Shown here: positions 1-43,822 of the stretch, in pieces | Position numbering within the stretch: the first letter of the stretch is position 1 | How the letters are laid out: every line of letters begins with the position of its first letter | IMG/VR virus record: IMGVR_UViG_3300037487_001578 | Span: 1-43,822 of that record | From: a virus | DNA: 43,822 nucleotides | Reading direction: 5' to 3' (one strand) | Made by a program: the position numbers and the translations under genes | The notes under the pieces: model-generated | The model's input: the letters and a program-made list of their open reading frames with translations, nothing else | Told to the model about the DNA's origin: nothing | Database searches by the model: none

Positions 1-127
1 TCAAACATCTAGCAACTCTACTTCTTATCGTTTGATATTCCATTGCCCGACTACTGCGACCGCTGCATGGTCTTTAAAGTTAGATAATGTTTGTGTGTGC
101 CCTAGCCAGTACGTTTATGGAAGTCCT
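1..127. repeat. Left copy of 127-base direct repeat X (pairs with 43186-43312)
   Basis: Bases 1-127 are identical to 43186-43312; the first mismatch is at base 128 (A against G). Both copies are read in the same frame within a fibre protein and encode the end of its carbohydrate-binding-like domain. The identity marks the upstream border of the exchanged cassette. Confidence 0.97.
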
Positions 128-1387
128 ATGACTGATTTTGCTGGTGTATTAACTGGAAATGTTACTGGTACAACTTCTGGAAGTTTGGCAATCGGTACAG
201 GTGGTGGTGCTACTTATTCAGTTCAAGCAAAACGAATTGGCGATGAGGCAATAGTAAAATATAGCATTCGTGTCGGCACTTCTGGCGCATCGGACGTTGT
301 TGGTGCTTATTTATTTCCATTTCCAACAGGAATAACTCCGGCGACTTTCAGTGTTAACGAAACCCTTGGGTATGGTGACGTGACTGTACAAGCTACAATC
401 AACCCCGCTGCTAGATTGATATGCAAAGCTTTTGGCACTGGTTTCATTGCAGATGTAAATGATGGTCTACTACTTTCTGGCGGTGGTGTATTATTCACTA
501 ATGCTAATGTTACTAGCATGACAATTCGCTATAAAGTACAAGGCTGGTCTTCAAACGTGCAAATGAGTGACTCTGCGGATACTAGGGTTGTTGATTTTAT
601 TGGTGCACAATCATCTCAAGCGGTAACTGCCAATGTAACTAATATTGCGTTCACTACTGTTAAGGACTCACATGGAGTTTGGACTGGTTCGACTTATGTG
701 GTCATTGTGCCAGGTGACTATGTTGTTAATTCCTCATGGTTAACTTCAGGGACTGCGGCTGGAGCTGTTTATAAAGACGCAGCATTTTTTGCTTACCTTG
801 GAACTGGTGGGGCGGCTCAAGCCTTAGCAGGTTCAGCTTTAGTGCCTTGTGTTGCTGGTACAGTTTTATCTGTGCGAAGTACAGGATCGGTAACGGTAAC
901 AAGTGGAGCAATCGGAATTTATCGCCTTTCCGGTCCCAGCGCAATTGCTGCGACTGAGACGGTGGCTTTCTCTGCTTATAACAATGCAAATGTAGACCTT
1001 TCGCCGGAAGATAATACATTAATTCCGTTTATCAATATTTCAGTTAATACCCACAATGTCTTACAATTTGGCGATAGAGTAGTTTTTCCCATAGCGGGCA
1101 CTTACAACATAAATGCAGAAGTTGCTGCTGAGCCTACTATTGGTGGAGTTAATCCACGACAATATTATGTTGTGAGTTTTAAGAAAAATAATTCAGAAAG
1201 TGGCTTACCACCAAATCGACCTATTTATTGGATGGATGGTACTACCCAAAAATCTTTATGGCGAATAAATACAATTATTAAAGTAAAAGCAGGGGATTTT
1301 TTTGAAATTTACGCTTCTTTAGATCAAAATTCAGATGGAATGCTATTTTGGCTAAATAACATTAATATTTCAAAGGTTGGGATGTAA
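2..1387 (+). CDS. Tail fibre / receptor-binding protein, C-terminal part (5' end outside the left edge), cassette variant a
   Basis: The frame is open from base 2 to the TAA at 1385-1387, so the true start is missing. In-frame sequence identical to bases 1-127 lies at 43186-43312 inside the gene starting at 42710, so this is probably the end of that gene across a circular junction (about 620 residues in total). Visible order: the end of a jelly-roll carbohydrate-binding-like domain (to about base 127), a variable beta-rich module (128-541), then a linker beginning GWSSNVQMSD and two beta-rich modules resembling C1q/TNF-type trimer heads ('VVDFIGAQSS...', 'AFSAYNNANVDL...'). Modules of this kind form the host-binding tip of phage fibres. 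That role is inferred from composition and position, not from a database hit. A small fibre accessory gene follows. Confidence 0.7.
   Translation, partial: QTSSNSTSYRLIFHCPTTATAAWSLKLDNVCVCPSQYVYGSPMTDFAGVLTGNVTGTTSGSLAIGTGGGATYSVQAKRIGDEAIVKYSIRVGTSGASDVVGAYLFPFPTGITPATFSVNETLGYGDVTVQATINPAARLICKAFGTGFIADVNDGLLLSGGGVLFTNANVTSMTIRYKVQGWSSNVQMSDSADTRVVDFIGAQSSQAVTANVTNIAFTTVKDSHGVWTGSTYVVIVPGDYVVNSSWLTSGTAAGAVYKDAAFFAYLGTGGAAQALAGSALVPCVAGTVLSVRSTGSVTVTSGAIGIYRLSGPSAIAATETVAFSAYNNANVDLSPEDNTLIPFINISVNTHNVLQFGDRVVFPIAGTYNINAEVAAEPTIGGVNPRQYYVVSFKKNNSESGLPPNRPIYWMDGTTQKSLWRINTIIKVKAGDFFEIYASLDQNSDGMLFWLNNINISKVGM
542..646. repeat. Left copy of direct repeat Y, at least 105 bases (pairs with 43718-43822)
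   Basis: Bases 542-646 are identical to 43718-43822, where the window ends, so the real repeat may be longer. It encodes the linker starting GWSSNVQMSD and the first strands of the C-terminal module. It is the downstream border of the exchanged fibre cassette. Confidence 0.97.
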
Positions 1388-8433: not shown

Positions 8434-9758
8434 TGGCATTATCGGACATTATGCAGTCATTACTAGGACAACAAGCGGAGGCTGCACAACCCGCTACTCC
8501 TACGCCTGACATGACTAAATTCATGGCAGGTCTTATGGCTCCTCAAGATACTACTCCGTCTCCGTTGATGAAAGCACAAGAAAGACCAAAATCTCTTTCT
8601 AATCCTCAGATAACAGCTAAACCTAAAAAGAAAACTCCTCTACAAACTAAGAAAGAAGAAAAGCCTTCTGATGTAAAACCCGCTGCTGAAGCCCCTGTTG
8701 AAATTGCAAAACCAGTTTTAGACCCAACTACATTAGCCGCTACCGACTCAGTTTCAAGATTAAACGAGATGAGAAAAAAGTTTGCGGAGTTAACTGCTAT
8801 TGGAAGTCCTGGTGAGTCTTTAACACAAAAGCAATTTACAAATCTTGTACCTAATGATGTCGATTTTAATAGAGCGGTGAATCAGGGATTAAACATGGAA
8901 GCAGCAGCCATGCCTGAAGACGTTCTAAATACTGAGCAAAATAGATATGTTCAGGATACTGCTAAAAAACTTCTTGAAGAGAAAATGGCAAGTCCATATC
9001 GTAATGTGGATCTTGAAAGAATGGATAAACTTAGTGCAGCTCTTATGGGAGCTAAAGCACTAGGAATGAAAAATGAACCTTCTCCTCAAGAAGAATTGAT
9101 GTCATTGGCTAAGATGAATCAACTTAAACAAGCCTACGACCAATTTAAAGCTAAAGAAGTCGGAGACTACACTACTCGTATTCTTACTCCGTACAATGTT
9201 GGTGGAGCTACTTATACTGTTCCACAACCACCTGCTCCTAGAACTGGAGGAAAGCCTAAAGAGGTTCGTGGTCCTGAAATTACTAAAGCTGCGGAAGCGG
9301 GAAGAAAAGCTCTTGAAACCCAAGGATATGTTCAACAAATGGCTGAACTACTTAAGAAACCTTGGAGCTACGAAAATTCTTCTAAGTACGATACTTTAGT
9401 TAATAACGTAGTTAATAGAGTAAAAGAATTAGAAAAATACGGTGCCAATTTCTCTGGTATTGAGCAAACTTTATCAAGAGCGAATATGCCTGCTAGCTAT
9501 AATTTAGCTAAAATTCAAGGAAGTGCTGGGATGTTTAATAAAGCAGCCACTCTTGAAGCATTTGGGCAATCGCTTGGAGAAAAAGGTGTTCAAGAAAGAA
9601 AAAATCTTGATCTAGTATATACTCGACCTGGGGAACCTCAATTTGTAAATCAAGTATTTGAAGGTACAAAATCTGTTTCTCAAGCAGGTAAAATTGTAAA
9701 AGAAGTTCCTAAGAATATTAAAGATATTCTAGACAAAGTTAAAGGAGGTAAGAAGTAA
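8433..9758 (+). CDS. Putative internal virion protein, long and helical
   Basis: A 441-residue protein. Residues about 30-110 are low-complexity, rich in Pro and Lys (PKSLSNPQITAKPKKKTPLQ...EEKPSDVKPAAEAPVEI) and probably disordered. The rest is predicted helical with many Lys/Glu (MRKKFAELTAIG, AKKLLEEKMASPYRN). It is coupled to both neighbours by one-base TAATG overlaps. Disordered plus long helical composition next to glycine-rich proteins fits the larger ejection proteins of podoviruses. No enzyme motif, such as a lytic transglycosylase, was seen. Confidence 0.5.
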   Translation: MALSDIMQSLLGQQAEAAQPATPTPDMTKFMAGLMAPQDTTPSPLMKAQERPKSLSNPQITAKPKKKTPLQTKKEEKPSDVKPAAEAPVEIAKPVLDPTTLAATDSVSRLNEMRKKFAELTAIGSPGESLTQKQFTNLVPNDVDFNRAVNQGLNMEAAAMPEDVLNTEQNRYVQDTAKKLLEEKMASPYRNVDLERMDKLSAALMGAKALGMKNEPSPQEELMSLAKMNQLKQAYDQFKAKEVGDYTTRILTPYNVGGATYTVPQPPAPRTGGKPKEVRGPEITKAAEAGRKALETQGYVQQMAELLKKPWSYENSSKYDTLVNNVVNRVKELEKYGANFSGIEQTLSRANMPASYNLAKIQGSAGMFNKAATLEAFGQSLGEKGVQERKNLDLVYTRPGEPQFVNQVFEGTKSVSQAGKIVKEVPKNIKDILDKVKGGKK

Positions 9759-11884
9759 TGGCTGACTTATCACCAGAAGATTTAAGTGCTTTAAAAGGCC
9801 ACGTTAAATCTTTATACCCCGGAATGACTGACGATAATTTGAAAAATATTAACCAAGAAGAAATGGTTCAACTTGTTACACACGCCACTCAAACAGGAGT
9901 AAGCCCACAGGAAGAAGAAGCGTATGGGTCAACCCCCGCAGCGATAGCTAATGAGGCTTTACAAGCTATTACGGGAGATAATCTCCCTGCCATTGCTGCT
10001 GGAATAAATGCACCTTTTTCAGATCAATCTTATGAAGATTTAAAAAAGCTTTACGAAGAACAGATCAAGAAAAATATAGAAACACATCCAATAGCTGCAA
10101 AAGGGCTTGGTTTACCAGCAGGGTTATTTGCTGGTGGCGAGTTAATGAAGGCTCTAGGTATTGGTGGAAAAGCTGTAACTAAATTTGGATCACCTTTATT
10201 CAATAGAATGCTTACAGGTGCAAAACAAGGTGCCACAACGGGAGCAGCAAGCGGAGCAATACAAAACTCTGGTTCACCAGAAGCTTTCTACGAGTCACCA
10301 GAAGCAGCTATGCAAAAGGCACTTCAGATTGGTGGTGGAGCTGCTATTGGTGGAGTATTAGGAGCAGGAGGAGGGGGTCTAGCTGCGGGATTTGAAAAAC
10401 TTGGTAAGAATATATTTTCTACACCGTTTAGAAAAATAGATGCCCAGCTTCATAAAGAAAATCCAGAACTTGGTAAAAAACAATTCTCCGATCTTCTTTG
10501 GAAATATAAAACAAGTGGTGACTATGGGGATGTCCAAAAAGCAATGGAGTTAGTTGCTAAAGAAGAAAAGTATCCAGTCATCCAAGAAATGAAAAGACGT
10601 GTAGATGAAGGCACTCTTGGAATTGAAGGAAAAGACTTAGTTGATATGCTTAAAAAAGCTATTTCTCCTAAAACTGGGGAAGGCATTGAAGCTGGAAGTG
10701 TGTCGAACTGGATTGATAACCAAATTGAAGCCCATTACATTGCTAAAGGTATTCCAGAAGAAGCTGCTAAAGTAGCTGCTAATAGAGAGGCTATTCGACA
10801 AGCTAAACTTCATAATGAAGCTATAGCGCAACAAGAATTACCATTTATGGACACAGCACAAAAAACTGTAACAACAGCTGTACCTCTAACTGCACCTGAA
10901 AAAGCAATGCCACCAATTGAGCCCATTAATTTTAGTATGTATCCTGAGCAAACTAATTTACAGCTAAAAAACTTAATTACTGGGGTAGAAATTAATCCAG
11001 AAATTGCTAATAGAGGAGCTATTGGTGATGCCTATAAATCTATGGGTATGAGTATTCCTGAAGGACCTCAAAAAGGTTTAGTAATGCCAGTCAGATCTCC
11101 GTACATTGTACCTGAAGCAGAAAGACCAATATTTGGTGCGCTTCAATCTGAAATGACAAATGCAAATATTTTACCAGCAGAAAAAAGAAGTCTTGGTGAA
11201 GGGGTTATTAAAACAATCGAATTTAGCCCTCCAGGACATCAATTAGAAATGGGGTTTCCTACAATAAAACAAATGCCTATGGAAGTTCCAATGCCTATTC
11301 CTGAAAAGGGAGAAAAAGTTGCCTTCTCTGATTTGTCTGACTTTGTTAGAAAACTACAAGGTGAGGCAACATGGAATCCAATTAGTGCTGGGACTACAGA
11401 AAAGACTAAAGGTGGTCTATTCAGAAATGTAGCTACAAAAGCAAGAGAAGTGCGTAATAAAATGGCTAAAGAAGTTGCCCCGGAACTTTATCCAAAATAT
11501 GAAGCAGTACAAAAAGAATTAGGGACTATTGCAGCGGCAAGAAACCCACTTACTTCTTTGGTTAAAGCAGAGGAATCTAGTCCTTTTCTTCCATATAGAG
11601 ATGCAGTAATCGGAGCAGGGTTAGCAAATTTAGTTAGCAATGCAGGCCCCGGTTCTATAGGATCTAATAAAGATTGGTCTTACTGGGATTGGTTAACAGG
11701 TGCAGGACTTGTTGCGGGAGCAATGCGATCCCCCAGAGCAGGTCAAAGAATAGGTAAAATAGTTAGTGGGATTGGTAGTAAAGTCATTTCTCCAATGTCT
11801 GCTCCTGTATCAGCTAAAGCCGCTCAGAGTATTCTTCAAGCTATTCCGGAATATTTAAAACCTAATGAGGAACCACAACCATGA
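9758..11884 (+). CDS. Putative large internal virion / ejection protein with membrane-active glycine-rich segments
   Basis: A 708-residue protein, the longest of the ejection-like block. Two regions stand out: a small-residue stretch GLGLPAGLFAGGELMKALG (about residues 115-133), and a glycine-rich stretch ALQIGGGAAIGGVLGAGG (about 189-206) that could insert into or cross membranes. The C-terminal part contains WDWLTGAGLVAGAMRSPRAG, another hydrophobic hairpin. The remainder is helical and charged. The next gene overlaps by 4 bases (ATGA). The role in ejection is inferred from composition and location; a tail-tip or lytic function cannot be excluded. Confidence 0.5.
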   Translation: MADLSPEDLSALKGHVKSLYPGMTDDNLKNINQEEMVQLVTHATQTGVSPQEEEAYGSTPAAIANEALQAITGDNLPAIAAGINAPFSDQSYEDLKKLYEEQIKKNIETHPIAAKGLGLPAGLFAGGELMKALGIGGKAVTKFGSPLFNRMLTGAKQGATTGAASGAIQNSGSPEAFYESPEAAMQKALQIGGGAAIGGVLGAGGGGLAAGFEKLGKNIFSTPFRKIDAQLHKENPELGKKQFSDLLWKYKTSGDYGDVQKAMELVAKEEKYPVIQEMKRRVDEGTLGIEGKDLVDMLKKAISPKTGEGIEAGSVSNWIDNQIEAHYIAKGIPEEAAKVAANREAIRQAKLHNEAIAQQELPFMDTAQKTVTTAVPLTAPEKAMPPIEPINFSMYPEQTNLQLKNLITGVEINPEIANRGAIGDAYKSMGMSIPEGPQKGLVMPVRSPYIVPEAERPIFGALQSEMTNANILPAEKRSLGEGVIKTIEFSPPGHQLEMGFPTIKQMPMEVPMPIPEKGEKVAFSDLSDFVRKLQGEATWNPISAGTTEKTKGGLFRNVATKAREVRNKMAKEVAPELYPKYEAVQKELGTIAAARNPLTSLVKAEESSPFLPYRDAVIGAGLANLVSNAGPGSIGSNKDWSYWDWLTGAGLVAGAMRSPRAGQRIGKIVSGIGSKVISPMSAPVSAKAAQSILQAIPEYLKPNEEPQP

Positions 11885-18670: not shown

Positions 18671-18943
18671 TTACTTAATACCTTTAGATAAATGTACAAT
18701 TACTCCGTGATGTATAAGATATGCTTTATAGAAATCAGTGATGAATTTATTTCTACTTGAATATCCAATAGCTAAATATATATGCCCTAAGTGCATCTTT
18801 ACTGTACTAAGGCTTACATTTAACTTATTAGCTATCTCTTTACTATTTTTACCGTCTAGAACAAGTAGTCCTACGGAAATTTGGTTCGGGGTCAACTCAT
18901 GCTCAAGAAATCTTGCTTTGAAAAAATTACTCATGTTCTGCAT
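18671..18943 (-). CDS. LuxR-type helix-turn-helix protein
   Basis: A 90-residue protein whose residues about 14-60 form a LuxR/GerE-like HTH: 'ELTPNQISVGLLVLDGKNSKEIANKLNVSLSTVKMHLGHIY'. This carries the conserved L-T..Q..V..L...G.S.KEIA..L..S..TVK.H pattern. There is no receiver or ligand domain, so it may be a stand-alone DNA-binding regulator. The start ATG at 18943 overlaps the end of the upstream gene; an internal ATG at 18934 is an alternative. It sits just before the helicase gene and could regulate the replication operon. Confidence 0.75.
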   Translation of the reverse strand: MQNMSNFFKARFLEHELTPNQISVGLLVLDGKNSKEIANKLNVSLSTVKMHLGHIYLAIGYSSRNKFITDFYKAYLIHHGVIVHLSKGIK

Positions 18944-19342: not shown

Positions 19343-19535
19343 AATTAGACCGAGACCGAGACCGAGACCGAGACCAAGACCGAGACCGAGACCGAGACCA
19401 AGAACAAGACCGAGACCAAGAACAAGACCCAGACCAAGACCGAGACCAAGACCCAGACCGAGACCGAGACCAAGACCAAGACCAAGACCAAGACCAAGAC
19501 CGAGACCAACCTTCTCGCATGATTACTGCAGTCAT
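19341..19535 (-). CDS. Low-complexity Ser-Arg/Ser-Trp repeat protein
   Basis: A 64-residue ORF beginning MTAVIMREGW, followed by about 27 Ser-X dipeptides where X is mostly Arg or Trp, with a few Gly and Cys, ending SRSRSRSN. It is encoded by a hexanucleotide repeat. Its ATG shares one base with the TAA of the upstream gene (TAATG on the minus strand), as for its neighbours, which supports translation. After its TAG the DNA is identical to the end of the zinc-ribbon gene but in another frame. The ORF is therefore probably a decayed relative whose body was replaced by repeat expansion. Function, if any, is unknown; Arg-rich repeats could bind RNA or DNA. Confidence 0.45.
   Translation of the reverse strand: MTAVIMREGWSRSWSWSWSWSWSRSRSGSWSRSWSGSCSWSRSCSWSRSRSRSWSRSRSRSRSN
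19347..19508. repeat. Degenerate hexanucleotide tandem repeat, about 27 units
   Basis: On the plus strand the unit is GACCGA or GACCAA, with rarer GAACAA and GACCCA variants, in uninterrupted 6-base phase over about 162 bases. Nearly all variation is at two positions of the unit, mostly G/A transitions. It is open in frames on both strands (Arg-Pro on the plus, Ser-Arg/Ser-Trp on the minus), but only the minus ORF is coupled to neighbouring genes. Repeats of this kind expand and contract by replication slippage. Confidence 0.97.
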
Positions 19536-21830: not shown

Positions 21831-22023
21831 CTTCTTTCACCGCTCTATGATAAGCTGCTTCGTACTCAAGGCAGTCATTTATATCTATAGCTACTCCACC
21901 AAAATAGTCGGCAAGCCACTTAGCAATTTGTAAATCATTTAAAATTAAAGCGTAGTCATAATTAGAGTATCTACCAATAGAATTAATATATTCTCCACCC
22001 GAAAAAATAACGTACTCACTCAT
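21802..22023 (-). CDS. Hypothetical protein
   Basis: A 73-residue protein (MSEYVIFSGGEYINSIGRYSNYDYALILNDLQIAKWLADYFGG...EYEAAYHRAVKEDVQSRLEKD), alpha/beta with an acidic character. It lies between two HTH genes and overlaps both (4 and 29 bases), which suggests a shared regulatory function. No family recognised. Confidence 0.55.
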   Translation of the reverse strand: MSEYVIFSGGEYINSIGRYSNYDYALILNDLQIAKWLADYFGGVAIDINDCLEYEAAYHRAVKEDVQSRLEKD

Positions 22024-22259
22024 ACGCCAAACTCTTTCTTAATGCTTTCTACTTTGTCCTTGATATATATTCTACACACATCTTGTAAATCTAAATCTAA
22101 AGCCTTGCACATCCTAATTGCAAAATCAGGAGCACAATTCGCTCCTCGCTCCACATTAGATATATGCTGATTAATTGAAATCCCCATTTTATTAGCAACT
22201 TCTTTTTGTGTTAATCCCAGAGTCTCTCTATGTTTTCTAAAATACTCGCCTAAGTGCAT
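22020..22259 (-). CDS. XRE/Cro-CI-type transcriptional regulator
   Basis: A 79-residue protein with a textbook HTH_3 domain at residues 4-56: 'GEYFRKHRETLGLTQKEVANKMGISINQHISNVERGANCAPDF' (R...G.TQ.EVA...GIS...IS..E.G). It is the first of three consecutive genes with HTH-like segments on the minus strand. Upstream, at 22272-22290, an inverted repeat overlaps a -10-like element, so it probably controls its own operon. No dimerisation or cleavage domain is present. Confidence 0.85.
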   Translation of the reverse strand: MHLGEYFRKHRETLGLTQKEVANKMGISINQHISNVERGANCAPDFAIRMCKALDLDLQDVCRIYIKDKVESIKKEFGV

Positions 22260-22702: not shown

Positions 22703-25153
22703 ATGCACAATCTTCTAAAGCGCACAGACACAGGCTGGCAAATTGCGGGCACTACACATGATCTAGAGAGTGTACTGCAAGATCCAAGTCTAGTTATAAG
22801 TGCACAGGGACGTATTAACTTGCACTATACTTGTCACCATGTCTTGCCCGAAGGACAGCGGTCATTTTCATCAGGCGAATGGCTTTTCTTTGATTTCGAT
22901 GAACTATCTATTGACCCAAAAATAGCATGTAAAGAATTTGTCACTTGCATAGAAGAATTTTTAGGGGCAGAAAATTGTGCTTGGGGGATAGTATCGGGGC
23001 GCGGGGTTCACGTTCTTCTAAGACTTCCACCTTATTCAGAATATTACTTAGAAGTACACAAATCTACTTACACTCACTTGAGTGATCTTATCAAAGCAAA
23101 GCTAACAAACTTTTCTTTTAAAGTAGACCCGGTCTTTCATAAGGCGAAGTCCCTTAGACTTGCGGGAACTGTGAATAGAAAACCAAACCAACCAGACACC
23201 GAGTGCTTTGTTAGCATCAAACCAACAAACAAAAATATAAAAGATTATTTCACACTCTATCGGCTTACTTACGACTCTACTTTTAACTTGGAAGTAGAAG
23301 AAAAGAAAAAAGCCGACGCTGTTAAGCAATCGGCTCAGAAAAACCATGCGCTGACAGTAATATCTAGCTCCGGGGAGCAAGTCAATACTCTGCCTGAAAA
23401 ATCTTCAATCCTAGAAAAGTGCGGTTTCATCTCAGGACTAGAAAATGAGCTTGCAAATCTCCCTCGTGATGAATGGTTTAAGGGCGTGTCCCTACTAACT
23501 ACTCTAGGAATGACAGAAGAGGCCCACAATTGGTCATCAACGTCTCCATTATACAAACATTCAGAAGTAGAGAGTATCATCGAAGGAGTACAGGCTCGGG
23601 GGCTTTACCCAATGTCTTGTACGACAATAAAGACAGCTTTCTCAGCAGAACTCACCTCTTTTTGTGAGTCATGCGCTTTTAAGTCCTGTAAATCACCAGC
23701 TAACCTCCATAATGACCCTCTGTTGTCCGTTATGGGTTCGGGGTTCAAACATCTACCAGAGGGAGCTAAAAAGGCCGTTACAGACTACGACTCTTTATCT
23801 CTTTTTATGTCCAAGTACCTCTCAGTCATCTATGTAAAAGATAGAAAATCTTTCTACCAGTGGGAGAATGAAACTCAACTTTACACAGAAAAAACAGAGG
23901 CAGAACTAACAAATACTGCCTGTAAACTCATCAAACCGAGAGTCATTGACCCAAACTCAGTCATACAAAGAATTGCAGGAGCTATCGAAGTGAACGCCTC
24001 CAAAGTGGAACAAAAAATGCTTGCCCCAGACGGTACCATTCCCCTAAAAAACGGCCTATTTTCAATCCAAAATGGCACCCTAGATCCTTACACTCCTAAG
24101 ATACTAACTACCAACAAGCTGCCTTATAGCTACGATCCATTGGCCGAGTGCCCACATTTTGACAAGTTCTTAGAAGAGAGAATCGGGGACCCTGAACTCA
24201 TAGAATCTGTCATGCTATTTCTGTGCTATGCAATTGCAGGAATTAAGCAGCCTATTAGAAAGATATTAGTCTTAGAAGGTCCTGCTGCCACAGGCAAGTC
24301 CACATTTCTAACAGTTATCGGTGAATTGTTCGGGGACCTCTGCGCCTATGGACAACTACAAAACTTGGTTGGCCGCTTTGAAACGGCAAGCTTCATTGAC
24401 AAAAGAGTTGTTCTCTTCGATGAGGCCCTATCAAGTAGAGATCAAGCACTTATAGAGGTCCTTAAAAACTTGTCCGGTTCGGAAAAAATCAAAGTAGAAA
24501 AGAAAGGTAAAGATCCTCAAAACGTGCTTAACCTTGGCCGTATCGTTATTGCTTGTAATGAAATACCCAAGGGAGGGGCACTCGACTCGGGGTTCATGGA
24601 TAGACTCTTGATTGTCCCTATGCACTCCGTTCTAGAATATTCTGAAAGAAATTACGATGAGGTCTCTCAAATCCTCACTGAAGGTAGCGGTATTCTAAAC
24701 AAAATAGTGTCATACTATGCGCGTTTAAAAGAACTCCGTTTCATTATTCCACAGCCAAAGGCGTCCATTGAGGCCATAGCTACATATCAAGAAGAGGACT
24801 CTTCCCTTGTAACTTTCATTAAACAAGAATGTGAGCTTGTCCCTTTCCAAAAAAGTGAGTCAATGACTGAAATGATAGCCTCATGCCACAGACCTACGAC
24901 TGCTCTTGTCGGTGTATCTCTTAAAGACTTAAGAGAGGCAATTGTAGACTGGGCAGGAAAAGAGGGCGAGGGCTATTTTGAAAAATTATCGGCTAGGTCA
25001 CTGGGTAAAATGCTCGATCAACTCTCTAAAACAACTTATAAAAACAAAATAAAGACCCATATTGATCGAAAAAATAGAAAATATATTCAAGGATTAGTTT
25101 TATCGGACAAAACCCTTCATTCAACCCTTGTACAAAAAAAGGACTCTTTCTAG
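22703..25153 (+). CDS. Primase-helicase: AEP-like primase domain plus D5/SF3 helicase
   Basis: An 816-residue bifunctional replication protein. The N-terminal archaeo-eukaryotic primase-like domain has D64-x-D66 (FFDFDE), S98GRGVH103 and D142 (KVDPVF), followed by R152 (LRLAGTVN), the usual three catalytic motifs. Cysteines C321, C324 and C329 (FCESCAFKSC) may bind zinc. A D5-type SF3 helicase follows: Walker A G526-PAATGKST-534, Walker B 'RVVLFDEA' (569-575) and sensor 'IVIACNEIP'. It would prime and unwind at the origin. It is the only plus-strand gene between two minus operons, read divergently from the HExxH gene. Its 3' end overlaps a terminator hairpin. Confidence 0.93.
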   Translation: MHNLLKRTDTGWQIAGTTHDLESVLQDPSLVISAQGRINLHYTCHHVLPEGQRSFSSGEWLFFDFDELSIDPKIACKEFVTCIEEFLGAENCAWGIVSGRGVHVLLRLPPYSEYYLEVHKSTYTHLSDLIKAKLTNFSFKVDPVFHKAKSLRLAGTVNRKPNQPDTECFVSIKPTNKNIKDYFTLYRLTYDSTFNLEVEEKKKADAVKQSAQKNHALTVISSSGEQVNTLPEKSSILEKCGFISGLENELANLPRDEWFKGVSLLTTLGMTEEAHNWSSTSPLYKHSEVESIIEGVQARGLYPMSCTTIKTAFSAELTSFCESCAFKSCKSPANLHNDPLLSVMGSGFKHLPEGAKKAVTDYDSLSLFMSKYLSVIYVKDRKSFYQWENETQLYTEKTEAELTNTACKLIKPRVIDPNSVIQRIAGAIEVNASKVEQKMLAPDGTIPLKNGLFSIQNGTLDPYTPKILTTNKLPYSYDPLAECPHFDKFLEERIGDPELIESVMLFLCYAIAGIKQPIRKILVLEGPAATGKSTFLTVIGELFGDLCAYGQLQNLVGRFETASFIDKRVVLFDEALSSRDQALIEVLKNLSGSEKIKVEKKGKDPQNVLNLGRIVIACNEIPKGGALDSGFMDRLLIVPMHSVLEYSERNYDEVSQILTEGSGILNKIVSYYARLKELRFIIPQPKASIEAIATYQEEDSSLVTFIKQECELVPFQKSESMTEMIASCHRPTTALVGVSLKDLREAIVDWAGKEGEGYFEKLSARSLGKMLDQLSKTTYKNKIKTHIDRKNRKYIQGLVLSDKTLHSTLVQKKDSF

Positions 25154-27352: not shown

Positions 27353-27529
27353 CTATGCGCCTACTGCTAAAAAAAGAGTTCCAGCTAAAACGGCTAAACA
27401 GAACGCTATGACTAGAAAAGAATGTAAGAGTGAAACAATACTTTTTAAACTAATGTCACACTCTGTGACTGCTAGAAAAAAGATTGATAGAAAAATTATT
27501 GTCGCTGATATTTGAAAGATTGCTTGCAT
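27353..27529 (-). CDS. Small membrane protein with two transmembrane segments
   Basis: A 58-residue protein. Two hydrophobic stretches (FQISATIIFLSIFFLAV and LLHSFLVIAFCLAVLAGTLF) are separated by a short polar loop with Cys, Asp and Lys (TECDISLKSIV). The start at 27529 follows TTTAGGAAAAAAAATC. Two-helix proteins of this size can be class II holins, but this one sits in the early region far from the lysin cassette. It could equally be an early membrane-targeted or superinfection-exclusion protein. Confidence 0.6.
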   Translation of the reverse strand: MQAIFQISATIIFLSIFFLAVTECDISLKSIVSLLHSFLVIAFCLAVLAGTLFLAVGA

Positions 27530-27571: not shown

Positions 27572-27573
27572 GT

Positions 27574-27597
27574 GGTTATGGTTATGGTTATGGTTAT
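27574..27597. repeat. Four tandem copies of hexamer GGTTAT
   Basis: GGTTAT occurs four times without interruption between the hairpin and the end of the 27594-27812 gene; the gene's TAA lies in its last copy. It is a slippage-prone micro-repeat and a possible regulatory spacer. Confidence 0.9.
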
Positions 27598-27812
27598 GAT
27601 TTAGTATCAAGAGCAGATACTAAAGAGATTAATTTAATCTCGCACTGTGAATAGCGCTGAGTGTAGTTGTTAACTTCGTCATCAGTTAGTGCTAGAAGCA
27701 ATTTAGTTCTGTAGTAATTTTTATCGTCTGTAATTGACTTGATCCCCTTTTCGATTTCTTCTTTTGTGAATTGTGAATAATCTTGGCTTGTGAATTTTAA
27801 ATAGGCTTGCAT
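27594..27812 (-). CDS. First gene of the early minus operon, hypothetical
   Basis: A 72-residue protein, MQAYLKFTSQDYSQFTKEEI, using the ATG at 27812 behind AAAGGAAAAGAA. A longer frame to 27914 would cover operator-like repeats and lacks a ribosome binding site. It is acidic and helical with 'ITDDKNYYRTKLLLALTDDEVNNYTQRYSQCEIKLISLVSALD'. Function unknown. As the first gene after the control region, it is likely to be expressed earliest. Confidence 0.6.
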   Translation of the reverse strand: MQAYLKFTSQDYSQFTKEEIEKGIKSITDDKNYYRTKLLLALTDDEVNNYTQRYSQCEIKLISLVSALDTKS

Positions 27813-27895
27813 TTCTTTTCCTTTGTTTTGTTTGTTGATGAAGACACAATAAAACAAAGTTAGTTGCTTGTAAAGCAATTTAATTAATTTAGTTG

Positions 27896-27918
27896 ACTGT
27901 TGTAAAGAATACAACAGT
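27896..27918. promoter_or_regulatory. 23-bp inverted repeat upstream of the early operon
   Basis: ACTGTTGTA (27896-27904) and TACAACAGT (27910-27918) are perfect reverse complements around a 5-base centre. This is the size of a phage repressor operator. A second dyad TTGCTT-GTA-AAGCAA lies at 27864-27878. Both are within 110 bases of the first early gene and are candidate sites for the XRE-type regulators at 21630 and 22020. Confidence 0.5.
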
Positions 27919-28039
27919 GTGGTGCTGAAGGAAATAGGGGCGGGGACATAGTGAAGTATAAAAAGAGAAAGGGGAGGGGAAAAATTATAATCTATTAGTC
28001 AATAAATAAAAAGATAAAAAAAAAGATAAAAAAAATTGT

Positions 28040-28443
28040 GCCGCCTATGCCGCCTAAAATAGGTATTTTCAACTCGCTACGGGAAATTTTAAACACCCCA
28101 TCTCTATTATTTCTCTACTGATATACACTTTTAATGCGGCATTTGCGGCATTTGCGGCTAATGCACCGTACCAATGACACAGGGTCCCGCACCGTAAACC
28201 CATGATATCATTAAGAAAATATCTGCGGTGACAATTTGCGGACCGCGGTGCATCGTACCCACCGCGTCTAGGCGGCAAGTATGCGGCATTTATTGCGGCA
28301 TTCAGTTTACACGTAAACTTAAATGATTTATATGCAAAGCATCAAAACGCATAAATGCACAACAATTAAGCATGTAAACAGAAAATTATTTGCGGCACGA
28401 AAATAAAGTTTGCGGCGAGTCATCTTAAAAGTCGGGGCGCGGC
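28040..28443. repeat. Cluster of GCGGC / TGCGGCATT iteron-like motifs
   Basis: GCGGC or its complement occurs at 28040, 28049, 28136, 28145, 28154, 28272, 28283, 28295, 28392, 28412 and 28439 (start positions), in otherwise AT-rich DNA. Three copies at 28135-28161 are tandem 9-mers (TGCGGCATT, TGCGGCATT, TGCGGCTAA), and the first two at 28040 and 28049 lie in the opposite orientation, also 9 bases apart. Related GCGGTG and GCGGAC variants lie between. Two palindromes are interspersed: ATGATATCAT (28202-28211) and AGTTTAC-AC-GTAAACT (28304-28319). Iteron arrays typify replication origins and packaging sites. Confidence 0.6.
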
Positions 28444-28529: not shown

Positions 28530-28720
28530 TGGAAGTTGGGGTAGTTGGCCGAGGATCGGGGGGCTTGGATCGGGGTAGGTTGTTGCCGAGCAAGGCCGAT
28601 TGGGACCCTGGTCCACGGACCGGGGGGCTGGGGGGGTCAAGGCCGATTGGCTGCTTCTATAGTCTTTTCCCAAAAATCCCCCGACCCCCGCCCCTAGAAT
28701 ACCGCCCCCTAGACCTTTAA
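28530..28720. other. GC-rich island with G-runs, C-runs and a repeated 13-mer
   Basis: The left part carries runs of 4 to 7 G (for example GATCGGGGGGCTTGGATCGGGG and CGGGGGGCTGGGGGGGTC, which could form quadruplexes). The right part has matching C-runs (ATCCCCCGACCCCCGCCCC). CAAGGCCGATTGG occurs at 28591-28603 and 28638-28650, and GGTCC-AC-GGACC is a dyad at 28611-28622. The composition differs sharply from the rest of the genome. Such islands are found at phage cos/pac sites or origins. No gene is supported here. Confidence 0.55.
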
Positions 28721-28917: not shown

Positions 28918-29598
28918 ATGCGAGAAGTTAATAAAAACTACCAAAATGAGTCATATTCTAGTCAAAATGGCGAAGAAACTGTTATTTTTAATGAATTTAT
29001 GGAAGAAGTTTTATCTCTTGTCCCCGAAGCGTTAGCGGATAGTTACCGCACTCTTCCCAGGAAGGCATTTGAACAAGATGAGAGGACACTTCGTACTATT
29101 CTAAATCCATCAGAGCAACAGCAAATGCTACGCACAAAATTATGGCAGATATTAAACGAGCGGCTCGGGATTTCGGGTGCTCCCCGTATTTCTATTTCTG
29201 AAATTTGCAGGGGTGTGAGTAATACAGACTACTTAGAAAGGATATGTACTCTGCCTTATGTGGTAGCCTGGTTACTCTGCCCTACGCTTAACTATGAGAC
29301 CCGGGTCGAGGCTTTGGTTGAGAAGTCGTATGACAGGATGAGTGAGATACTAGATTTACCTATAAAAGATAATACGGGGGCTGTGGACATGAAGGTAGCT
29401 AATCTTGTTCTACAGGTAGCTAAGATGATAGATATGCGTAGTCGTGGGGGATATGTGGAGCGGATAGAGCAGAAGACGTTAAATGTGAACGCTTCAGCTA
29501 AGGAGGCTCAGGCGATGTTTGGTGGTAAGGAAATTCTTTCTTTAGATCAGATTGAGGAGAGGATTAAGATGTTAGAGACGGGTAAGAAGAATGAGTAG
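28918..29598 (+). CDS. Probable terminase small subunit
   Basis: A 226-residue, helical protein directly upstream of the large terminase, with which it overlaps by 8 bases. The central region 'SISEICRGVSNTDYLERICTLPYVVAWLLCPTLNYETRVEALVEKSYDRMSEIL' has the look of an HTH-containing small terminase. The C-terminus (SLDQIEERIKMLETG) is probably coiled coil. It would recognise the packaging site, probably the GC-rich or iteron region just upstream. The start at 28918 has a poor ribosome binding site, so an internal ATG (28999) is an alternative. Confidence 0.65.
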   Translation: MREVNKNYQNESYSSQNGEETVIFNEFMEEVLSLVPEALADSYRTLPRKAFEQDERTLRTILNPSEQQQMLRTKLWQILNERLGISGAPRISISEICRGVSNTDYLERICTLPYVVAWLLCPTLNYETRVEALVEKSYDRMSEILDLPIKDNTGAVDMKVANLVLQVAKMIDMRSRGGYVERIEQKTLNVNASAKEAQAMFGGKEILSLDQIEERIKMLETGKKNE

Positions 29599-31120
29599 AG
29601 ATAAAGATATTCTATCGGCCCGGGATCTGAAGCTTGCTAAGTTACAGGAATTAGAACGAAGGTCAATGCTCCCGCACCTTTACGGGCAAAAATGGTACAA
29701 ATGGGCATGGGATTTTTTTACCTGTAGAAATAGGATGGCTTTGCTTACAGCGGCCAATCAGGTATCTAAGTCTTCTACTCAGATAAGAACAATTATTGAC
29801 TGGGCTACAGACAAATCTAAATGGCAAGGACTTTGGCCGACAGAGGACTTTACAAGTAGATCCCCGGTTATGTGGTATTTATATCCTGATGCTACTCTAG
29901 CTACTACGGAGTTTAAGGACAAGTGGGAGACTGAGTTTATGCCAAGAGGGGTGATGAAGAATAGTTATCAGTATGGATGGGAAGAAGAATACGATTCACG
30001 TAAGAAGATATACTGTGTGAGGTTTAAGACTAATGCAGTAGTATATTTTAAGTCGTATGCACAAGATGTTCACTCTCTACAAGGGTCCACGGTTCATGCA
30101 ATATTTACAGATGAAGAGTTACCAGAAAATCTGTACTCTGAATTATACTTTCGTTTGAACTCTACAAATGGCTATTTTAGAATGGTATTTACTGCAACAA
30201 GATCGCAAGAAATGTTTAGATGTGCTATGGAAGAAATTGGTACAAGATTTGAGAAGTTTAAAGGAGCTTGGAAGAAGTCAGTGTCATTATTTGAATGTCA
30301 GGAGTATATGGATGGCTCTAAGAGCAAGTGGACTAACGAGAGAATACAAGACACTATAGATAACTGCAAGGACGAAAATGAAGTTCAGCGGCGTGTCATG
30401 GGGCGATTTGTCCGTTCAGACAGTCGTAGATATGTTTTTTCTAAGACAAAGAACTATGTAACCCCGCTCCCCGAGGATTGGAAGGAGACTCCTCCTGATG
30501 ATTGGCATATTTTTGCAGGGGTAGATATAGGTTCGGGGTCCCCTGGTAATGCTCCTTCTGCGATTTACTTTATAGCTGTGAGGCCAGATTTTAGGTTTGG
30601 TAGGATCTATAACGGATGGAGAGGTGACGGTATTCTAACTACTGCCGGGGACGTTTTTAAGAAGTACATGGAGATGAAAGATAGACAGCCATTAATGGCT
30701 TCTTATGATTGGGGCAGTAGCGATTTTGGACAAATAGCCGCTTCTAATAGTGAGCCATTTGTTAAGGCGATGAAAGATAGATCCAAAGGGGATGAAATAT
30801 TAAATACTCTTTTTAAGTTCGGGATGCTTGTTATTGATGATGTTGGTAATATCGAATTAGAAAAACTATCGAATGAATTAACTAATCTTGGTGTTGATTC
30901 TATTCATGGTGATGATTCAGCCGATTCTACAAGGTATGGAGTAGTACCGATACCATGGGACTTTACAGGAATTAAGAAGAATTTAAAATTAGAGAAACCA
31001 ATAGAAGATATGTCTCAACTAGACCAGCGTAGAGGAGGATATGTGACAGATACTCTTCCTCAGCCTGAATATAATATTGATATAGAATTGCAAGAGTGGA
31101 GTGAAATGTATGATTACTGA
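29591..31120 (+). CDS. Terminase large subunit (packaging ATPase and nuclease)
   Basis: A 509-residue protein. The ATPase domain has a Walker A-like loop in 'LLTAANQVSKSSTQ' (A55 to S62), the A-N-Q-x-x-K-S form found in podovirus terminases, and Walker B 'HAIFTDEE' (D174, E175) with the coupling motif 'VFTATRS'. The nuclease domain has 'FAGVDIGSG' (D312), 'ASYDWGSSDF' (D373) and a later Asp in 'SIHGDDSADSTRYG'. It cuts concatemers and drives DNA into the procapsid through the portal. It is followed within the same operon by the portal gene. Confidence 0.93.
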   Translation: MSRDKDILSARDLKLAKLQELERRSMLPHLYGQKWYKWAWDFFTCRNRMALLTAANQVSKSSTQIRTIIDWATDKSKWQGLWPTEDFTSRSPVMWYLYPDATLATTEFKDKWETEFMPRGVMKNSYQYGWEEEYDSRKKIYCVRFKTNAVVYFKSYAQDVHSLQGSTVHAIFTDEELPENLYSELYFRLNSTNGYFRMVFTATRSQEMFRCAMEEIGTRFEKFKGAWKKSVSLFECQEYMDGSKSKWTNERIQDTIDNCKDENEVQRRVMGRFVRSDSRRYVFSKTKNYVTPLPEDWKETPPDDWHIFAGVDIGSGSPGNAPSAIYFIAVRPDFRFGRIYNGWRGDGILTTAGDVFKKYMEMKDRQPLMASYDWGSSDFGQIAASNSEPFVKAMKDRSKGDEILNTLFKFGMLVIDDVGNIELEKLSNELTNLGVDSIHGDDSADSTRYGVVPIPWDFTGIKKNLKLEKPIEDMSQLDQRRGGYVTDTLPQPEYNIDIELQEWSEMYDY

Positions 31121-40176: not shown

Positions 40177-42701
40177 TGGGGGGCGCATTTTCAAAACATA
40201 GATTTCAAATTTGGAATAGTAATCAGCATCCTTATAAACATAGCACAAGTGAGTTTTCCTATTCAAACGGCGTAGTACCAGGAGTAAGTTCTGTTACAGA
40301 CGTATTAGATTACATCTTAGCCGTATTATATCCTCTTAGCCAGGCAAGTATTCCTACTAAAGCAGATTTGCCTGTAACAGCGACTTTTGTAGCGACTATA
40401 GGTTCTCCTGCGGTGATTGCTTTAACTGGCAATAAATACTACACAGGAGACCAAGTAAAACTTACTACAACTGGTACTTTACCAGCGGGTTTGAGTGTTT
40501 CTAATGTTTACTACTTAAAAGAAACAACAACTAATACTTTCCAAGTTTTCTCTGACAAAAATCTTCTAGTCCCCGTAGCTATTAGCACTACTGGATCAGG
40601 CGTTCATTCTGTAGTCAATTTACCTAACTCATACAGAGTGGTTTTAGATGATGGAGACGGTAAAGCAGCAGCATATAGATATGAAAAACGAGAAGGCGAT
40701 GTTGCTTATATTTGGTACAAAGTAGGTGATTTAGACTGGGGACAAGACTCAGTATTAACTGCCTTTGAAAATATCACACAAGATTTGTATATATACAAAC
40801 AAGGTAAGGATGACCGTGATGCTACTGGAGCTGTACTTACTGGAGATCAAGCTGGACAACACGTATATGGTGGTGCTTCAGCCAACACGAACCTCATTCT
40901 TCATGCGAATAGTGGAGATGGTACGGGAGCACAGACAGGAGCAATTGAAGTAGCCGACCCTATTCTTCCTTTAGTTAATACACTATCACTAGGATCATTA
41001 ACTAAGAAATTTGTAGATTTATTCTTAAGTGGAAATATTAAAGTTAGTACAATGACTATAACTGGTGGGTCTATTACTGACACCACAGGAGCAATTAGTT
41101 TTGATAATGAAAATCTTACAACTACTGGAAATGTAACTGGTAATACTGTAGGTGGGACAACTGTAACCGCAGGAAATTTATCTTTATCAGCAAGTCAGAT
41201 TACTTCATCGGCAACTGATATTTCTTTTGGATCAAATAAAATAAAAACTACAGGTGATGTAGAGGGTTTAAATTTAATTGCTAAAAATGGAGTTAAAACA
41301 ACTACTATTAGCAATGGTACAACAGATACTACTCTTACTTCAAGCCAAGGATCTTTTGATCTTCAAAATGCAAATTTAAAAGGTATTAATGCGCTTACTT
41401 CAACGAGTGCAGCAGCAGGTTCTATTACTGTTGATAATCTTACACTTGATGTTAACATTATTTCTTCTACTACTGATATTAATGTATCTCCAGCAGTAGG
41501 TTCAAAAGTTAAGCTTAACAAGTCTACAGATGTTACGGGGGCATTAGCTGCTACTGGTGCAGTATCAGGACTTACGGTATCTGATGGGCACACTACTCTT
41601 GATGGATCTAAGATCACATCTACAACTGGGTTCGTTGATGTTGATTCTTCTAAAGTTTTACGAGCAGGAAACATTGAAGGATCTGATGTTAAGGCAACGA
41701 CTTTAACAGCAGGTCTTGTATCAGAAAATGTAGCTGACATTGTGGATTTTCCATTCACAGGTGCCTCTGAAGGAAACACTATATTTTATCAATCTGGTCA
41801 TTGGGTAGCAGGTGCCCCAAGTCCCGGAGTAACAGACCACGGAGCATTGACTGGTCTTGCTTACGACGACCACACTCAGTATGCTCTTTTAGCGGGAAGA
41901 ACTGGTGGTCAAAATATCGTAGGAGGTACAGCAGCAGCAGATGTACTTACTTTAAAATCAAATGCAGCAGCAGCCAAAGAAATTAAGACAAAGGATACAG
42001 TAGCTCCATTTACCGATGCTACTTATTCTGGTGGATGGACTGGTCTTGATTTAGGTACAGCATCTTTAAACTTTAAAGACATATATACTAAAGGTGAGCA
42101 TAAAGGCCTACGTTTAGAAAATGTAGCAACACTTCCAGCAGCGAACGTAGTAAATATAGGAAGAACTGTCTTCCTTACTTCTGATAATAAGATTTACTAC
42201 GATACTGGTGGAGCATGGGTCGCTATTCCTTTAACAGCGGGTACAGCAAGCCCTTTGACTACTAAGGGTGACATTTATGTTTTTTCAACTACCAATGCAA
42301 GACTTCCAATAGGTACAGACGGGCAAGTGCTGGTTGCTGATTCAACACAAACAACAGGCCTTAATTGGACAAATGGCGTAAGTGAATTTATTAGTTCAAG
42401 TTTATCACTCACTGCAGGTGGTTCAATTTCAATTCAAACTACCTACAAACTGCAAACTTGGTTAGTTGCTGGCACCTCGGCTGTAAGTTTATCAACAACA
42501 CCATTTGGAGCAACAGCTCCGGTCGATGGCGCAGTCATTGTGTTGATTGGGAATGATGACACCAACACTGTGAATGTTGTCGCTAATGATGCCTCAAAGG
42601 GTGTGCTTGGGTATGACTACACTCTGGCAAGGGGCCAGACTATAACTTACAAATACAATACAACACTTGACCGATATGTCATTGTTGGAACTTCTAACTA
42701 G
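40176..42701 (+). CDS. Large tail fibre protein
   Basis: An 841-residue protein starting at the ATG at 40176, spaced correctly after GGGAG; an earlier in-frame ATG (40161) lies inside the previous gene. The N-terminal domain (VTDVLDYILAVLYP..., 'VTATFVATIGSPAVIALTGNKYYTG') is followed by a long Thr/Ser/Gly-rich shaft (residues about 270-520) with the repeated pattern 'T.GN..G.t...G.l...a..I.SS'. Later come the linker 'DHGALTGLAYDDHTQYALLAG', the segment 'TTKGDIYVFSTTNARLPIGTDGQVLVAD' and a small beta-domain. These features are standard in phage side-fibres that contact host surface sugars. Confidence 0.8.
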   Translation: MGGAFSKHRFQIWNSNQHPYKHSTSEFSYSNGVVPGVSSVTDVLDYILAVLYPLSQASIPTKADLPVTATFVATIGSPAVIALTGNKYYTGDQVKLTTTGTLPAGLSVSNVYYLKETTTNTFQVFSDKNLLVPVAISTTGSGVHSVVNLPNSYRVVLDDGDGKAAAYRYEKREGDVAYIWYKVGDLDWGQDSVLTAFENITQDLYIYKQGKDDRDATGAVLTGDQAGQHVYGGASANTNLILHANSGDGTGAQTGAIEVADPILPLVNTLSLGSLTKKFVDLFLSGNIKVSTMTITGGSITDTTGAISFDNENLTTTGNVTGNTVGGTTVTAGNLSLSASQITSSATDISFGSNKIKTTGDVEGLNLIAKNGVKTTTISNGTTDTTLTSSQGSFDLQNANLKGINALTSTSAAAGSITVDNLTLDVNIISSTTDINVSPAVGSKVKLNKSTDVTGALAATGAVSGLTVSDGHTTLDGSKITSTTGFVDVDSSKVLRAGNIEGSDVKATTLTAGLVSENVADIVDFPFTGASEGNTIFYQSGHWVAGAPSPGVTDHGALTGLAYDDHTQYALLAGRTGGQNIVGGTAAADVLTLKSNAAAAKEIKTKDTVAPFTDATYSGGWTGLDLGTASLNFKDIYTKGEHKGLRLENVATLPAANVVNIGRTVFLTSDNKIYYDTGGAWVAIPLTAGTASPLTTKGDIYVFSTTNARLPIGTDGQVLVADSTQTTGLNWTNGVSEFISSSLSLTAGGSISIQTTYKLQTWLVAGTSAVSLSTTPFGATAPVDGAVIVLIGNDDTNTVNVVANDASKGVLGYDYTLARGQTITYKYNTTLDRYVIVGTSN

Positions 42702-42709
42702 AGGTAAAA

Positions 42710-43822
42710 ATGTCCAGAATAATTGCTCTTGATAACATTGAGGGTCTTGCAACAAATAAGAATTATATTAAAAACGGAAAAGCTGAAAAAAACACTTTTG
42801 GTTTTGCCACCTATGCAGATGCCGTAGGTGTCTTTCCAGTCGACGGAATCGGAGGCACGCCGACTCATATTACCTTTTCAACAACAACAACAACACCGCT
42901 TGGAGATGTTGGCTCATTTTTAATTACAAATTCAGGATCAACTTCAGCGCAAGGTGAGGGTGCATCTTATAACTTTACGATAGATGCAAAAGACAAAGCG
43001 AAAGTTTTACAAATTAGTTTCGATTATATTGTAAACTCAGGCACTTTCGTTGCTGGATCTACAGGCGTTGATTCAGGCATTGAGGTTTACATTTACGATG
43101 TGACCAATGCACAGATAATACAGCCTTCTAGCTATAAGTTGTTATCTAATAGCACGTCTATTGCTGATAAATTCAACGGAACATTTCAAACATCTAGCAA
43201 CTCTACTTCTTATCGTTTGATATTCCATTGCCCGACTACTGCGACCGCTGCATGGTCTTTAAAGTTAGATAATGTTTGTGTGTGCCCTAGCCAGTACGTT
43301 TATGGAAGTCCTGTGACGGATTGGAAAACATTTACACCAACTGGCTCATGGACCACTAATACAACATATACAGGAAGATGGAGGCGCGTTGGCGATTCCA
43401 TGCACCTTCAAGTTTCTTTGTCTTTAACAGGTGCACCAACAGCCACGGCACTGGGGATTAACTTACCAAACGGATATGTAATAGATACGGCAAAATTGGC
43501 AGATACAAGCGGAGATACTCATCAACTTGGAATAGCAGGGTTCGTCGATAGTGGGACTTTGGCATTAATAAATGGTAAAATAATTTTCGGTTCAACTAAC
43601 CAAGTTAATGTTTATGGTACAACAAATGTCGGAGCAAATGGACAGGTAACTCATTTATTCCCTTTTACTTTTGGAGCACTTGATAGAGTTGCATGTATGT
43701 TTGAAGTCCCCATCCTCGGCTGGTCTTCAAACGTGCAAATGAGTGACTCTGCGGATACTAGGGTTGTTGATTTTATTGGTGCACAATCATCTCAAGCGGT
43801 AACTGCCAATGTAACTAATATT
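42710..43822 (+). CDS. Tail fibre / receptor-binding protein, N-terminal part (3' end beyond the right edge), cassette variant b
   Basis: The frame starts at the ATG at 42710 behind GAGGTAAAA and stays open for 371 codons to the window end. Residues about 1-200 (IIALDNIEGLATNKNYIKNG..., 'VLQISFDYIVNSGTFVAG', 'STSYRLIFHCPTTATAAW') form a jelly-roll domain of the carbohydrate-binding type common in phage fibres. The variable module (bases 43313-43717) reads 'DWKTFTPTGSWTTNTTYTGRWRRVGDSMHLQV...'. Then comes the linker GWSSNVQMSD, shared with the gene at the left edge. Joined across the circle the full protein would be about 617 residues. Confidence 0.8.
   Translation, partial: MSRIIALDNIEGLATNKNYIKNGKAEKNTFGFATYADAVGVFPVDGIGGTPTHITFSTTTTTPLGDVGSFLITNSGSTSAQGEGASYNFTIDAKDKAKVLQISFDYIVNSGTFVAGSTGVDSGIEVYIYDVTNAQIIQPSSYKLLSNSTSIADKFNGTFQTSSNSTSYRLIFHCPTTATAAWSLKLDNVCVCPSQYVYGSPVTDWKTFTPTGSWTTNTTYTGRWRRVGDSMHLQVSLSLTGAPTATALGINLPNGYVIDTAKLADTSGDTHQLGIAGFVDSGTLALINGKIIFGSTNQVNVYGTTNVGANGQVTHLFPFTFGALDRVACMFEVPILGWSSNVQMSDSADTRVVDFIGAQSSQAVTANVTNI
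43186..43312. repeat. Right copy of 127-base direct repeat X
   Basis: Identical to bases 1-127; divergence starts immediately after, at 43313 against 128. It encodes the end of the carbohydrate-binding-like domain, directly upstream of cassette variant b. Confidence 0.97.
43718..43822. repeat. Right copy of direct repeat Y, cut by the window end
   Basis: Identical to bases 542-646 up to the last base of the window. It resumes shared coding sequence after cassette variant b and fixes the downstream border of the swap. Confidence 0.97.

Follow-up and report, generated by a model that had tools for sequence, protein, structure and literature searches.

The control region

A cluster of eleven GCGGC sites occupies positions 28040 to 28443 (404 bp) of IMG/VR virus record IMGVR_UViG_3300037487_001578, a virus contig of 43,822 bp; this whole record was analysed and is called the window below. 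As a preliminary description of this DNA had stated, the cluster has leftward ORFs on one side, ending with the one at 27594-27914, and rightward terminase genes on the other, which start at 28918. It is non-coding by the ORF filter used. The features of the control region, and the genes discussed together with it, are as follows.

18671-18943: GerE protein, candidate for binding the array as an operator
22020-22259: HTH_3/HTH_31 protein, candidate for binding the array as an operator
22703-25153, plus strand: P4-family (D5_N / DUF5906) primase-helicase of 816 aa, proposed initiator (TIGR01613, PF08706, PF19263)
27958-28035: A-rich tract, candidate DNA-unwinding element (90% A+T in a 60-bp window at 27980)
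28039-28056, minus strand: two putative iterons, TGCCGCCTA twice, inverted relative to the rest
28135-28158, plus strand: three tandem putative iterons, TGCGGCATT, with a 9-bp period
28224-28265: candidate degenerate GCGG sites between the intact iterons, at 28225, 28238 and 28245 (plus) and at 28243 and 28262 (minus)
28271-28299, plus strand: three putative iterons, at 28272, 28283 and 28295, in 11- and 12-bp steps
28391-28443, plus strand: three dispersed putative iterons, at 28392, 28412 and 28439
28617-28694: G-tract/C-tract block, a separate element before the small terminase gene and a candidate packaging or late-control site
28918-29598, plus strand: probable small terminase subunit, from its position before TerL; no family match
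29591-31120, plus strand: large terminase subunit (phrog_2, E 9.4e-10)

Portal and internal-virion-protein matches were present in the window and suggest a podovirus-like phage. Two small proteins matched Pam3 phage families, which we take to be a weak hint of a cyanobacterial host. The terminase, portal and capsid proteins had no match among 50,697 isolated-phage records, and a search with the control-region DNA against isolated phages likewise gave no match. At both ends of the window (1-1387 and ~42700-43822) there are tail-fibre-like reading frames, with repeated blocks (FQTSSNSTSYRLIFHCPTTATAAWSLKLDNVCVCPSQYVYGS; GWSSNVQMSDSADTRVVDFIGAQSSQAVTANVTNI) in common. The contig may therefore represent a nearly complete genome whose break point is a repeat. 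Among all repeats of the record, the strongest is a 27-copy hexamer tandem repeat (AGACCA/AGACCG) at 19347-19509, among the leftward genes, and a similar long hexamer-type array (GCCGTA) was seen at 840-1750 of locus L095. Four exact copies of TGGTTA are found at 27573-27598, also among the leftward genes.

Structure and significance of the GCGGC array

Two of the GCGGC sites are on the minus strand (28040 and 28049) and nine on the plus strand (28136, 28145, 28154, 28272, 28283, 28295, 28392, 28412 and 28439); i.e. 9/11 point one way and 2/11 the opposite way. The consensus over the 11 sites is T (8/11), W (10/11), K (10/11), GCGGC and A (9/11). Eleven sites in about 400 bases, some of them in 9-base steps, had already been noted in the preliminary description; every site was found where it had been placed, the steps were correct, and TRF independently returned the same 9-bp unit, TGCGGCATT, at 28135-28158. 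This unit has four copies in the genome, all within the array, and TTGCGGC has six copies, five of them in the array.

The densest other 404-bp stretch of the record holds 2 GCGGC sites, compared with 11 in the array, and genomes simulated with a first-order Markov model held a maximum of 5 sites per 404-bp stretch. In 5000 Markov simulations of the array region itself, the mean was 2.0 sites and the maximum 10, 11 sites were never reached, and the three 9-base steps did not occur (0/5000). The presence of multiple short repeats of one motif in this non-coding DNA is thus beyond chance. The A-rich stretch said to flank the array proved to be real and adjoins the repeats, with 90% A+T over 60 bp at 27980, the highest value between 27.9 and 28.9 kb. 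Two other details of the earlier account were not borne out. The surrounding DNA had been called otherwise AT-rich, but the array stretch itself has a G+C content of 43.5%, above the ~38% of most of the genome; and two palindromes reported as interspersed with the sites were not above shuffles (DNA folds, z = -1.76 and -0.56). An Rfam search gave no match.

The proposed initiator

The primase-helicase scored 130 bits against TIGR01613 (phage/plasmid primase, P4 family; curated cut-off 108.7), 39.8 bits against PF08706 (D5_N; cut-off 22.4) and 68.5 bits against PF19263 (DUF5906, P-loop helicase; cut-off 27.6). With a three-sequence profile, the only PDB relative below E 0.01 was 7ola (E 1.5e-30), which we take to be the structure of SaPI5 PriRep. 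The C-terminus of the window protein had no Pfam match, and a winged-helix domain was not detected in it. Structure models of the primase and of its C-terminus had pLDDT values of 43 and 45, too poor to interpret. The primase stop codon is 2.9 kb upstream of the array, leftward ORFs lie in the interval, and no array was seen in the flanks of the primase gene itself in the window. Searches of viral contigs and of bacterial genome contigs turned up no close primase relative, and the window primase, small terminase and large terminase, used as single-protein queries of the viral contigs, gave no relatives.

Related phages and repeat arrays at their primase genes

Querying the viral contigs with the capsid protein yielded two near relatives, L040 and L041 (capsid identity 74% and 67%, respectively), and a three-sequence capsid alignment yielded 66 loci. 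L040 is an 8,452-bp fragment beginning just upstream of the terminase genes, so the array region is not covered by it. L041 belongs to record G003, of 44,905 bp. The two ends of G003 (L041 1-140 and L043 ~8770-8906) carry the same sequence, which falls inside the G-tract block preceding the small terminase gene. Although classed as linear, this record thus probably represents a complete genome, either circular or circularly permuted.

G003 showed no GCGGC cluster. Its control region has other repeats, including CTGAAGC and TGTAAAAATTAC, and its primase-helicase is only 26% identical to that of the window, compared with 67% for the capsid protein, as would be expected if motif and initiator change together. 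When the array region was aligned directly with the G003 control region, only the A-rich tract aligned (p 0.005), a match that is of low complexity and has to be read with that caveat.

A 7-mer cluster scan was carried out on nine family records encoding a primase-helicase, the window included; searching viral contigs with a primase alignment added three loci, and bacterial genome contigs contributed two more. Thirteen relatives were compared for arrays at the primase gene. A significant cluster straddling or abutting the 3′ end of this gene was present in three of the 13, with 0/400 shuffles as good in each, and eight of the 13 had no significant array at the gene. The arrays were the following.

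G021: CCAGCAC, eight copies, primase gene 3′ end, equalled in 0/400 shuffles
G010: AGTGCCA, six copies, primase gene 3′ end, equalled in 0/400 shuffles
L153: GTGCCCA, seven copies, primase gene 3′ end, equalled in 0/400 shuffles
G007: GGTGAC, primase gene 3′ end, borderline (p 0.048)
L154: AAGTATG, five copies, primase gene 5′ side

Repeats directly downstream of the initiator gene, the placement published for SaPI Rep and SCCmec Cch2, were found in G021, G010 and L153, but not in the window. In G021 and L153 the repeats stand on both sides of an AT-rich stretch. G010, G021 and G007 share the capsid family of the window; L150 to L154 were found via the primase, and sharing of the capsid is not established for them. 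At the primase C-terminus, Pox_D5 was above cut-off in G019 and weak in G003, G021 and L150.

A proximity test of the top non-coding cluster against the primase gene, which covered the genomes up to G010 and left out the last three, gave fractions of 0.05 to 0.5; closeness of array and primase is in any case weak evidence, because non-coding DNA is concentrated near the primase gene. The exact tandem pattern TGCGGCATTTGCGGCWTT was found at 37 loci in the viral contigs, most of them resembling coding repeats, and none of the 37 held a comparable array in AT-rich DNA. L019, considered as a relative after a stray match to this pattern, was unrelated.

Possible packaging or operator functions of the array

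A packaging site (pac or cosB-like) would also consist of repeats, bound by the small terminase subunit to start packaging. About 475 bp separate the array from the probable small terminase gene downstream of it, whose homologues occupy the same place in relatives (41% and 35% identity), and known cases of repeated small-terminase sites ahead of terminase genes include cosB of phage lambda. However, the G-tract/C-tract block at 28617-28694 is nearer to the gene and its DNA is conserved in both near relatives: it aligned with the equivalent DNA of L041 and of L040 better than any of 200 shuffles did. A pair of G-tracts was found upstream of the large terminase gene in 20/33 family loci, with a density of 0.373/kb there versus 0.0066/kb elsewhere on the same strand (~57-fold). 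The GCGGC array, in turn, was not conserved next to the terminase genes of relatives, being absent from G003 despite a 35% identical small terminase, and where relatives have significant arrays, these accompany the primase gene rather than the terminase gene. Judged by these comparisons, the block is a better candidate than the array for being recognised by the terminase, and a packaging role of the array appears improbable. Of the two kinds of binder originally suggested for the array, an iteron-like initiator site thus stands as the best reading, while the small terminase fits the conserved G/C element better.

Repeats near terminase genes were also seen elsewhere. At 10180-10300 of L124, which belongs to record G019, a reading frame that by eye resembles a tyrosine recombinase begins with short tandem repeats, first of ACACACCCACCAATA and then of CACGTCCAAT. 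In L126 (record G004), a longer unit, GAGTGTTGTATTTTAGTCACATATATATA, is repeated five times at 10690-10845, in the divergent control region that precedes the terminase genes; its position is the same as that of the window array, but the kind of repeat is different.

About equally unlikely is an operator array, in which an HTH protein of the phage would bind the repeats and switch between leftward and rightward transcription. Such proteins are indeed encoded by the phage, and promoter-like sites occur in the divergent control region that holds the array. These sites, however, were not above shuffles in number (5 versus 3.5). Operators usual for these HTH families are few and palindromic, unlike eleven short repeats mostly in the same orientation, and the arrays at the primase genes of relatives would be left unexplained. 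Least probable is an origin to which some other protein, be it an initiator of the host or a small phage protein that went unrecognised, binds before the primase-helicase is recruited: array and A-rich tract do resemble an origin and several small leftward ORFs are without a family match, but studied relatives of the primase-helicase bind their own origin repeats (PMC7581432, PMC4234260) and the arrays of the uncultured relatives are at the primase gene.

The array as a probable replication origin

We consider it fairly probable that the array represents replication-origin iterons for the phage's own P4-family primase-helicase. The preliminary description had mentioned this protein among possible binders, and it is the likely one: it belongs to the P4 family, studied members of which bind short iterons, and arrays adjoin the end of the corresponding gene in distant relatives. 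The primase-helicase would bind the GCGGC-A iterons as a self-loading initiator and form hexamers at them. The adjacent A-rich tract would then be melted by it, and unwinding and priming would begin, as for SaPI Rep, SCCmec Cch2 and P4 alpha. Between relatives, we infer, iteron motif and initiator change together.

A turn in GC skew and conservation in close relatives had been named as signs by which the array could be judged, and these gave a mixed picture: the cumulative GC skew did turn, with its minimum at 27391, but the GCGGC motif was not conserved in the nearest relative, G003. The skew minimum is compatible with an origin, although skew mostly follows gene direction. The third-codon-position skew of the primase gene was -0.17 on the plus strand, which would suit replication-driven skew, but it is not decisive given that some late genes were negative too. 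The distance of 2.9 kb from the gene and the lack of an array at the gene in most relatives weaken the case for an origin.

The array is most likely a known kind of origin in an undescribed phage group. Of moderate interest are its unusual distance from the initiator gene and the differing motifs of the arrays in distant relatives. A broader and more tentative possibility is that an uncultured lineage of tailed phages keeps a P4-type self-loading initiator which changes together with its motif, giving each phage a private origin, and that the array here has moved from the gene end into the control region ahead of the terminase genes, where it might couple the start of replication to the early-late switch.

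Together, the array and the primase-helicase make up a specific initiator-site pair that can be tested, in a phage group to which none of the isolated phages searched gave a match. To learn how P4-type primase-helicases read DNA sites, a set of distinct motif-initiator pairs is at hand (GCGGCA, GTGCTGG, AGTGCCA, GTGCCCA and GGTGAC), and within one control region a probable replication site could be told apart from a probable packaging site.

Comparison with known systems

The short iterons recognised by SaPI Rep lie immediately downstream of the gene for this protein (PMC7581432). The origins of SaPI Rep and SaPI5 PriRep, self-loading initiator helicases of staphylococcal pathogenicity islands, share with the window the primase-helicase family, short non-coding iterons and an AT-rich stretch. 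The SaPI origin is, however, directly downstream of the rep gene, whereas the window array is 2.9 kb off, has another motif and, unlike that of SaPI, belongs to the control region of a complete tailed phage. Cch2 of SCCmec binds and requires AAGTG iterons downstream of its gene, and its C-terminal dsDNA-binding domain was shown experimentally (PMC7581432). With the window it has in common a D5_N / P4-type helicase and short direct repeats; the Cch2 iterons, immediately downstream of the gene, number three, compared with eleven GCGGC sites in the window, and the C-terminal domain of Cch2 is without a detectable counterpart in the window protein. Because of its distance of 2.9 kb from the initiator gene, the array is described here as working like the SaPI and Cch2 origins and is not filed among them.

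The alpha protein of P4 is, like the window protein, a P4-family primase-helicase; its winged-helix domain, which has no detectable match in the window protein, binds the origin repeats, after which the protein unwinds and primes (PMC4234260). The arrays of the uncultured relatives (G021, G010, L153 and G007) differ from that of the window in having a motif of their own in each case, none shared with the window, and in their position at the gene 3′ end; like the window array, they consist of short, mostly G+C-rich repeats, and they stand beside a gene for a P4-family primase-helicase.
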